Assembly (NCBI GenBank): GCA_020072925.1
Contig: JAIQGA010000011.1
Coordinates: 1-37,198, forward strand
Direction: 5' to 3'
Length of the DNA: 37,198 nt
Source: Terriglobia bacterium
GTDB taxonomy: Bacteria > Acidobacteriota > Terriglobia > UBA7540
In this document: in pieces, positions 13,481-32,950 of the stretch
Numbering within the stretch: the stretch's first letter is position 1
How the letters are laid out: each line of letters begins with the position of its first letter
Position numbers and translations under genes: made by a program
The notes under the pieces: model-generated
The model's database searches: none
Told to the model about the DNA's origin: nothing
What the model saw: only the letters and a program-made list of their open reading frames with translations

Positions 13481-13634
13481 CTGACTGTCCGATGTCAGTA
13501 GCCAGTTGTCAGTGGTCCGTTGCCTGTAGAATCCTGACAGTCGATGGTTCAGGAAGCTCTGTAGATTCACAATCCACCGAACAGTACCTGCGTCGGACGA
13601 CTAACAACGGACAACTGACAAGGGACCACGGACC
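13481..13634. repeat. Short-word array with self-complementary arms (GTCAGTGGTCCGTTG / CAACGGACAACTGAC)
   Basis: The left arm carries CAGTTGTCAGTGGTCCGTTG (13503-13522). The right arm carries CAACGGACAACTGACAAGGG, so the RNA could fold. It fills the 184-base gap between sufT and ygfZ. The same CAGTTGTCAGTGG words recur at 22806-22870. Confidence 0.75.
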
Positions 13635-21930: not shown

Positions 21931-22133
21931 GAGTCAGGTGTCAGGTCTCAGAATCGGGCCATCGGGCCATTTGGCCATTGAATCATTTTCCCATTTCTTC
22001 ATTTCCTCATTGGCACATTCAATGATCGAATAACCCCACGACTGGAAGGCCTGAAAGTCCTCCGCGCTAATGGGCATCCGATGGATTGGATCAATGAACA
22101 AATGATTCAATGAAAAAATGGCTAAATGACTCA
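21931..22133. repeat. Short-word array (CATTTGGCCATT / CATTTCCTCATT / AATGAAC types)
   Basis: The 235-base gap between the second ATPase and the response regulator contains GTCAGGTGTCAGG, GGGCCATCGGGCCATTTGGCC and then many CATTN-type words. At its far end is AATGAACAAATGATTCAATG, roughly complementary to the left part. No gene is seen in it. Confidence 0.65.
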
Positions 22134-25406: not shown

Positions 25407-25480
25407 CATTCTGAATTATGAATTATGAAATCATCCAAGTCGTTTTGCTTTCATAATTCAGAATTCATAATTCAGAATTA
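25407..25480. repeat. Short-word array with inverted arms (CTGAATTATGAATTATGAAA / TTTCATAATTCAG)
   Basis: The left arm at about 25410-25430 and the right arm at about 25450-25476 are complementary and could pair in the transcript as a long AT-rich hairpin. It fills the gap between the first ATPase and the second permease. Confidence 0.75.
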
Positions 25481-26286: not shown

Positions 26287-26390
26287 TAGAAACTGGAACC
26301 TGGAAATTGGAAACTCGAAACGTGTCTGGAGCGCAGCGAGTTTCGAATTTCGATTTTCGAGTTTCCTCTTAACACCTGGCACCTCAGACC
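26287..26390. repeat. Short-word array (GGAAATTGGAAACTCGAAA / TTTCGAATTTCGATTTTCG)
   Basis: Words of GAAACT/GGAACC/GAAATTGG on the left and TTTCGAATTT/CGAGTTTCC on the right are mutually complementary. It fills the gap between the first permease and the first ATPase and ends with GGCACCTCAGACC. Confidence 0.75.
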
Positions 26391-31923: not shown

Positions 31924-32388
31924 TTAAGGCTTGAAGGCATCCTTGATCAAGCGCACCTGCAACCCCGCTTCCGGGTTCCACGCCACGCTGGCGATGTCGA
32001 AGCGGTAGTTAACGTGCTGCTTCTTCAGTCGCCGCAGATAATCCTGCGCGGCCTTGGCGATGCGTTTCTGTTTTCCCCGGGAAACGGCCGTCTCGGGCGG
32101 TCCCGCCTCGGCAGACGTTCTCGTCTTGACTTCCACGAAGGCCAGCACCGGGCCGTCCCACCCGATTAAATCCACTTCCCCTGAACCCGCGCGGGCGCGG
32201 CGATTCCGCGCTACCATAGTATAACCCGCTTGACGCAGATACCAATAGGCCAACGTCTCGCCGCGTTCGCCGGTCTTCAAGTGCTCGCTTGCGTGCGGCG
32301 CCTTCCCGGCGGGTCCACGACCTCGGAGCGCGCGCTGGCGCTCCTTCCAGACCAGCAAGCCGTACATGAGTCGCGCAAGTACGGACAT
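31924..32388 (-). CDS. yraN: YraN-family (UPF0102) nuclease-like protein
   Basis: The 154-residue product has the family core: GERGETLAYWYLRQAGYTMVARNRR, then GSGEVDLIGWDGPVLAFVEVKTRTS. The E...D...E-V-K arrangement is that of restriction-endonuclease-like folds. The cellular role is not firmly known. The word array at 32391-32441 abuts the ATG at 32388, and there is no visible Shine-Dalgarno, suggesting that the original upstream region was displaced. Confidence 0.9.
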   Translation of the reverse strand: MSVLARLMYGLLVWKERQRALRGRGPAGKAPHASEHLKTGERGETLAYWYLRQAGYTMVARNRRARAGSGEVDLIGWDGPVLAFVEVKTRTSAEAGPPETAVSRGKQKRIAKAAQDYLRRLKKQHVNYRFDIASVAWNPEAGLQVRLIKDAFKP

Positions 32389-32390
32389 GG

Positions 32391-32441
32391 GATTTCGGGA
32401 CTCGCTACTCGAGATCCGGGACTCGTGATTCGGGACTCGGG
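32391..32441. repeat. Left word array (TCGGGACTCG units)
   Basis: Three or four units of CGGGACTCG with variants (CTACTCGAGATC, TGATTCGGGACTCG). It is the reverse-complement word of the array at 32872-32950, so the two form inverted flanks around the four-helix-bundle gene. Confidence 0.8.
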
Positions 32442-32467
32442 GTTAGGAAGTTCATCCTTGCCGTAAA

Positions 32468-32857
32468 TCACGGGGTACTAGCGAGCCGCTTTGCGTCCAG
32501 GGCTTTAATGAGACGGTTCAGCATTTTGCCGACATCGGATATAGCCGTCTGCATGCTCGCCAACTCGGGTCCCTTAATGTACCCGAGCTCACCGGAAACA
32601 ATAAGATGAGTGTCGAGTTCGGTCAAAGAGCCTCGAGCTATCTTCAGGAACTGAATATACTCCTTGGTTGAACCCCGACCCCAGCCTTCTGCGATATTGG
32701 CTGGCACTGAGGTCGAAGCCCTACGGATTTGGCCCGTCAATCCGAATCGTTCATCGGGCGGGAAACACTTAGTCAGCTTGTATAGGTCTACCACAAGGCG
32801 AACGGCTTTCTTCCACACGTCCAGATCCTTGTGACTACGGAAAGAACCCTCCTGCAT
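32468..32857 (-). CDS. Four-helix-bundle protein (23S rRNA intervening-sequence-type, S23 family)
   Basis: The 129-residue product starts FRSHKDLDVWKKAVRLVVDLYKLT and has the family signature FGLTGQIRRASTSVPANIAEGWGRGSTKEYIQFLKIARGSLTELDTHL. Such proteins were first found encoded in 23S rRNA intervening sequences but often stand alone; they form pentamers of unknown role. ATG 32857 follows AAAGGGA; the longer open frame through the array is not credible. The gene lies between inverted word arrays, with the yraN start on one side and the aminotransferase stop on the other. Confidence 0.9.
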   Translation of the reverse strand: MQEGSFRSHKDLDVWKKAVRLVVDLYKLTKCFPPDERFGLTGQIRRASTSVPANIAEGWGRGSTKEYIQFLKIARGSLTELDTHLIVSGELGYIKGPELASMQTAISDVGKMLNRLIKALDAKRLASTP

Positions 32858-32871
32858 GCTCTTCCCTTTCA

Positions 32872-32950
32872 CGAGTCCCGAGTCCCGAGTCCCGAATCCC
32901 GAGTCTCGAGTCCCGAGTCCCGAATCCCGAGTCTCGAGTCCCGAGTCCCG
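32872..32950. repeat. Right word array (GAGTCCC units, 28-bp higher-order period)
   Basis: Seven-base units GAGTCCC/GAATCCC/GAGTCTC repeat about eleven times. A 28-base block made of the units GAGTCCC, GAGTCCC, GAATCCC and GAGTCTC occurs twice in a row, showing recent tandem growth. It ends two bases before the aminotransferase stop codon. Confidence 0.9.

Follow-up and report, generated by a model that had tools for sequence, protein, structure and literature searches.

The evidence suggests a type of mobile DNA element that has so far been overlooked, and a 560-bp unit in a Terriglobia bacterium, a small S23 gene enclosed by two inverted arrays of one heptamer word, is one case within a far wider pattern. 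The anatomy of this unit and the association of S23 genes with such arrays are very secure, and the mobility of the whole unit is well supported. The unit was found in a stretch of 37,198 nucleotides, which we refer to throughout as the window.

Anatomy of the unit

The unit and its surroundings comprise the following features.

31924 to 32388, minus strand: host gene yraN (UPF0102), a flank outside the unit that marks the insertion junction
32391 to 32950: the whole unit, 560 bp, between the class-III aminotransferase gene and yraN
32391 to 32443, minus strand: 3' arm, a degenerate heptamer array in inverted orientation that ends just before the yraN start codon
32468 to 32857, minus strand: S23/IVP four-helix-bundle gene, 129 aa (PF05635, TIGR02436)
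32872 to 32950, minus strand: 5' arm in the S23 sense direction, a 79-bp heptamer array of about 11 copies of CGGGACT that abuts the aminotransferase stop codon
32953 to 34380, minus strand: host gene for a class-III aminotransferase, a flank outside the unit that marks the insertion junction

The word CGGGACTCG occurs 11 times in the window, where 0.69 occurrences are expected and 100 shuffles give at most 3, and 10 of the 11 lie at the unit, three on the plus strand (32396-32439) and seven on the minus strand (32872-32950). TRF resolves the right array (32872-32950) as 11.3 copies of CGAGTCC with a higher-order period of 28 bp at 98% identity, and the left array (32395-32441) as degenerate; the right array is regular and long, and the left retains three exact words. 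These counts bear out an earlier, sequence-only reading of the window, which had described word-matched arrays of opposite orientation around the gene, adjoining the yraN start codon and the aminotransferase stop codon; both arrays indeed end within a few bases of these codons.

No transposase, nuclease or polymerase domain was seen in the unit, defence-system families gave no match, and promoter and terminator scans returned nothing informative. Rfam models run over the window detected two tRNAs only, and the unit sits outside any 23S rRNA gene. Elsewhere in the window, a control ORF has a 65-nt inverted match on either side (975-1257 and 1240-1296; TGTCATTCTGAGCGCAGCGAAGAATC class), which probably belongs to another dispersed repeat family.

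The S23 protein

The window gene is a member of the 23S rRNA-intervening sequence protein family, matching PF05635 (23S_rRNA_IVP, E=5.6e-39) with 133.1 bits against a cut-off of 33.8 and TIGR02436 with 128.5 bits against a cut-off of 24. PF05635 is the sole domain found, and a Y1/HUH transposase domain is absent. The predicted model (pLDDT 94.3) is a four-helix bundle, as the sequence-only reading had proposed, and resembles XCC0516 of Xanthomonas campestris (2gsc, Z 20.8), BT_0352 (2rld, Z 17.3) and the DGR protein Avd (4dwl, 8ub7; Z about 14.8), all with scores higher than those of unrelated bundles. Avd profiles also match significantly (phrog_3206, E=1.3e-10; NF033474, 31.8 bits), the latter under the 80-bit Avd equivalog cut-off. 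The invariant residues L12, W15, L21, P33, E36, Q43, S50, N54, A56, E57, G58, R61, S77, E80 and T83 suggest a functional site.

S23 copies within the genome

A protein search of the same genome recovered ten S23 copies, the others being 34-53% identical to the window copy, and the family profile gave 15 matches. All ten S23 genes read (10/10) have inverted arrays, so the comparison within the genome that the sequence-only reading had proposed came out in its favour. The left and right words match at each locus and differ among loci: CGGGACT, AGGGATT, CGGAAGT, GTCAGCG, GTCAGTT, an octamer of the AGTTGAAA class, GTAGACG, CGAAACT, the GCAGAAA class and GAGTCCG. The copies are divergent and give no indication that gene-bearing copies multiplied recently in this genome.

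A second class of arrays with a period of 8 (ATTGATTC-like words) is spread through the same genome as inverted pairs, and period 8 also occurs in some S23 units.

Window 21953-22133, locus L013 1842-1914 and locus L014 2306-2473: period-8 arrays

Inverted arms across bacteria and archaea

Of 41 relatives, 34 have PF05635, with as many as 23 copies; the 14 control genomes all lack it. The sample was extended by 80 loci from other phyla, including Planctomycetota, Bacteroidota, Cyanobacteria, Chloroflexota, Clostridia, Proteobacteria, Spirochaetes and Methanophagales archaea, and by 58 loci from viral contigs. For all loci, the arm score is a single ungapped comparison of the left flank with the right flank in reverse complement. 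At a score of at least 15, inverted arms are detected at 171 of 211 loci (81%), compared with 3.1% of mismatched locus pairs and with 21 of 211 loci in the direct-orientation control; at a score of at least 13, the count rises to 186 of 211, compared with 6.7% of mismatched pairs. The best lag within the arm is 7 in 154 of the 171 loci and 8 in 13. Of the 25 loci scoring below 13, many have short or diverged arms by eye, and a few (L060, L196, L198) have none that are visible. Arms are found at 28 of 30 S23 loci in Lysobacteraceae, an independent family, and around plasmid-borne S23 copies in Riemerella and Calothrix. On a plasmid record of Riemerella anatipestifer (L329, 3582-5929), an iron-sulfur assembly accessory gene and sufB flank an S23 unit whose arms read GGTTTAA/GGTTCAA.

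Replication slippage and quasipalindrome template switching are established mutational processes, and the arrays and their inverted matching could be by-products of them, with S23 merely persisting at such places. The widespread occurrence of gene-less heptamer arrays is in line with this explanation, which we nevertheless regard as very improbable, given that ordinary ORFs of similar size from S23-rich regions of the same genomes reach a score of 15 in 4 of 804 cases (0.5%), compared with 81% for S23, and that most S23-free genomes are without arrays.

An annotated phage collection gave no S23 match, and we therefore claim no phage origin despite the 58 loci from viral contigs. A motif scan recognised no S23 locus within 23S rRNA among the fetched loci; the comparison with 23S rRNA intervening sequences, which the sequence-only reading had named as a place where S23-type genes reside, thus rests on the published Coxiella case (PMC4990558). 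At L105 and L128, the S23 gene seems by eye to interrupt, or to lie inside, a frame resembling an N-6 DNA methylase.

The arms are inverted copies of each other

The two arms of an element are more alike (identity 0.87) than adjacent units of one arm are (0.77), and the score falls when one arm has its units shuffled (114 elements, p=6e-16), so the two arms match in register. On the S23 sense strand, the 5' arm contains more G than C in 148 of 167 biased loci and the reverse in 19.

This strand bias would fit a model acting at the level of RNA, in which the arms form a stem that is removed from the host transcript by RNase III or another nuclease, the unit is thus tolerated in operons, and the S23 protein acts on RNA. 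The window unit is co-directional with an operon-like gene row and its arms pair when it is folded as RNA, with a stability far above that of shuffles (z=-5.0); in Coxiella, the intervening sequence contains GACAGAT heptamers, and RNase III cuts its 28-bp stem (PMC4990558). On the other hand, mismatches between arms show no G-U wobble bias on the sense RNA (216 versus 231), which speaks against the pairing being kept by selection on a sense-RNA stem alone. An RNA-level model by itself also leaves both the joint inheritance of word and gene and the gene-less copies throughout genomes unexplained, and we consider it quite unlikely.

The word is inherited with the gene

Similarity between arms of different loci climbs with the identity of their S23 proteins. 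Among S23 pairs that are at least 70% identical and have unrelated outer flanks, the word is shared in 46% (score 15), compared with a baseline of 1.3% for pairs less than 50% identical. Examples include L042 and L297, which share the window's word CGGGACT, L288, L301 and L298 (GGATTCA), and L279 and L306 (GGTGCTG). On the S23 tree, word labels change 139 times, compared with 159 in shuffles (minimum 155), and period-8 labels change 10 times, compared with 13.7 (minimum 12); altogether, 129 distinct words were found in 168 loci. That closely related S23 genes in unrelated places have a word in common indicates that arms and gene descend together, as one unit.

Junctions and empty sites in relatives

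At least 20 relatives keep the aminotransferase-yraN-galT order, and S23 is missing from the junction in every relative tested, some of these junctions measuring 0 to 8 bp. This comparison, which the sequence-only reading had put forward, thus also came out in its favour; its reading of the site, a small non-autonomous unit ended by the arrays, is partly supported. That the arrays are the ends is well supported, whereas the term non-autonomous better fits the gene-less hairpins described below. Arrays at this site without the gene, which had been named as evidence against that reading, do occur: at L200, L203 and L213 the junction retains a short inverted pair of heptamer arrays of the same word class with no gene between them, and that of L201 holds a pair of another word. 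Thus either S23 was lost from these junctions, or it entered a hairpin that already stood at the site.

The latter possibility is the essence of a target model, in which heptamer hairpins are an older and separate intergenic feature and the S23 gene invades their loops, much as intervening sequences enter the tips of 23S rRNA helices. The three junctions favour it; we nonetheless hold it to be unlikely, because word and S23 protein descend together across unrelated surroundings and because an empty site within one genus is fully array-free. In that same-genus pair, the unit at L270 (about 530 bp including arms) corresponds to an array-free spacer of about 80 bp in genome G009. Two further units are missing from relatives: that at L274 is missing in G009, where a short piece resembling its right array is left, and that at L277 is missing in G004, where a different palindrome occupies the site. 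No target-site duplication was recognised at the empty sites read. A segment of about 90 bp at L274 (5042-5133) matches dozens of places in G009 and is an unrelated dispersed repeat of the genus.

Gene-less hairpins co-occur with S23

The window also contains inverted heptamer pairs that enclose no gene.

13487 to 13633, unstranded: gene-less inverted heptamer pair (GTCAGTA class / ACAACTGAC class), a call made on the words of its arrays
25408 to 25479, unstranded: gene-less inverted heptamer pair (ATTATGA / TTCATAA)
26289 to 26365, unstranded: gene-less inverted heptamer pair (GAAACTG / CGAGTTT) of the same build, a candidate non-autonomous relative of the unit

Such pairs are frequent in genomes with S23, and S23-poor genomes have almost none. 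In 386 kb from genomes with 0-2 S23 genes there are 2 period-7 arrays, compared with 42 in 437 kb from genomes with at least 10, while arrays of other periods hardly differ between S23-poor and S23-rich genomes. With kinship ignored, the count of one word-class pattern correlates with S23 number across 41 genomes (rho 0.75, p=1e-8), and among 119 Lysobacteraceae the GGGANTN pattern has a median of 97.5 in the 54 genomes with S23 and 0 in the 65 without (p=8e-14). Lysobacteraceae whose S23 arms have a GGGANT-like word reach a median of 211, compared with 12 otherwise (p=0.013, kinship again ignored). Phormidium has 113 occurrences of its S23 word GGGAGTC, compared with 0-2 in 12 other genomes; in one Ruminococcus, the word is confined to the S23 arms.

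The correspondence between gene-less words and S23 words varies. In the window's own genome, the gene-less words do not match its own S23 words; overall, the match is in excess (p=0.0006), an excess that leans on genome G040, whose units were chosen by word pattern. Ten of the 65 S23-free Lysobacteraceae still have at least 10 array matches. Genomes that keep arrays with no S23 detected include G031 (14 array matches) and the Lysobacteraceae G057, G158 and G167; these may be incomplete or may have lost S23 recently.

Gene-less hairpins can also be nested. At L318-L322 (G032) and L310 (G040), an outer word pair encloses an inner pair of another word, with a third layer (AAGCCNT) inside the G032 hairpin, and one gene-less unit of G032 is present in two copies 3.5 kb apart with different outer flanks. 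The great numerical excess of gene-less hairpins over S23 units and their potential nesting speak for the target model, and the near absence of arrays from genomes without S23 speaks against it. Judging from the correlation, S23 likely has a role in trans in maintaining gene-less hairpins.

A proposed mobile hairpin with its own binding protein

Our favoured interpretation, which we hold with moderate confidence, is that the site is a mobile hairpin element with heptamer arrays as its ends and S23, a relative of the Avd fold, as its nucleic-acid-binding protein. Gene and arms would move and evolve together, with arrays of one heptamer word as ends and S23 as cargo. The S23 protein may bind, in DNA or RNA form, the hairpin built from its own word, and such binding would promote the copying or insertion of its own unit and, in trans, of gene-less hairpins, in a manner resembling the service of RAYT proteins to REPINs; the chemistry would presumably come from the host or a partner enzyme. 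Slippage inside the arms, together with copying from arm to arm, could keep the arms matched as the word drifts.

A broader proposition, which we judge to stand at about even chances, is that these elements constitute a class of mobile DNA spread among bacterial and archaeal lineages. Here an Avd-fold protein with no known catalytic domain would recognise hairpins of its own word and propagate its own gene inside such a hairpin and, acting in trans, hundreds of gene-less ones. Drift of the protein would go along with drift of the word, giving each lineage a private word, and the class would include, as special cases, the intervening sequences of 23S rRNA and the unexplained heptamer repeats of Xanthomonas, Nostoc and Beggiatoa.

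S23/IVP genes are common and their structures have been solved, while no function has so far been known for them, and heptamer repeats have been reported in several phyla with no explanation. The link between the two offers a testable role for the protein and a likely origin for the repeats, and widens the intervening sequence from a curiosity of rRNA genes to a widespread element. If the protein indeed reads or maintains its own word, the element would define its ends in a manner new to mobile DNA, and the matched protein clades and words provide many natural test cases.

Comparison with known systems

Several known systems share parts of this architecture. S23 has the same four-helix fold as the DGR accessory protein Avd (Z 14.8 to 4dwl). 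Like RAYT genes with REP/REPIN elements, S23 genes lie between inverted elements and are accompanied by many gene-less hairpins of the same build per genome; unlike them, S23 has no HUH/Y1 transposase domain, and its ends are heptamer arrays of variable word rather than fixed palindromes. As for a dependence of the gene-less hairpins on the gene in the style of REPINs and RAYTs, co-occurrence is strong and the word match is absent in the window's own genome. With respect to MITEs and insertion sequences, the ends of the unit are inverted, no target-site duplication was recognised at the empty sites read, and no transposase was seen in the unit.

G-rich intergenic heptamer repeats have been described in Xanthomonas and Nostoc (Rehm et al. 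2015, PMC4692102), those of Xanthomonas forming about 70 convergent inverted pairs with no known role (PMC4692102), and TAACTGA intergenic heptamer repeats in Beggiatoaceae (PMC4679880). The S23 arms of Lysobacteraceae bear the same GGGAATC-type word as the Xanthomonas repeats. S23 genes are unmentioned in these two reports, and within the open-licence literature searched, the association and co-occurrence with S23 are findings of this study.

The nearest known system is the S23-encoding intervening sequences of 23S rRNA. In Coxiella, terminal inverted repeats around an S23 ORF form the 28-bp stem that is cut by RNase III, with the GACAGAT heptamers in tandem at the 5' end (PMC4990558). As in the intervening sequences of Coxiella and Leptospira (PMC4990558), the S23 ORF of the window lies in the loop of a stem made by the element's own ends. 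Unlike them, the unit lies between protein genes, its word varies among units and passes down together with the protein, and it has gene-less relatives genome-wide. The unit probably works like an intervening sequence and differs from one by its location.
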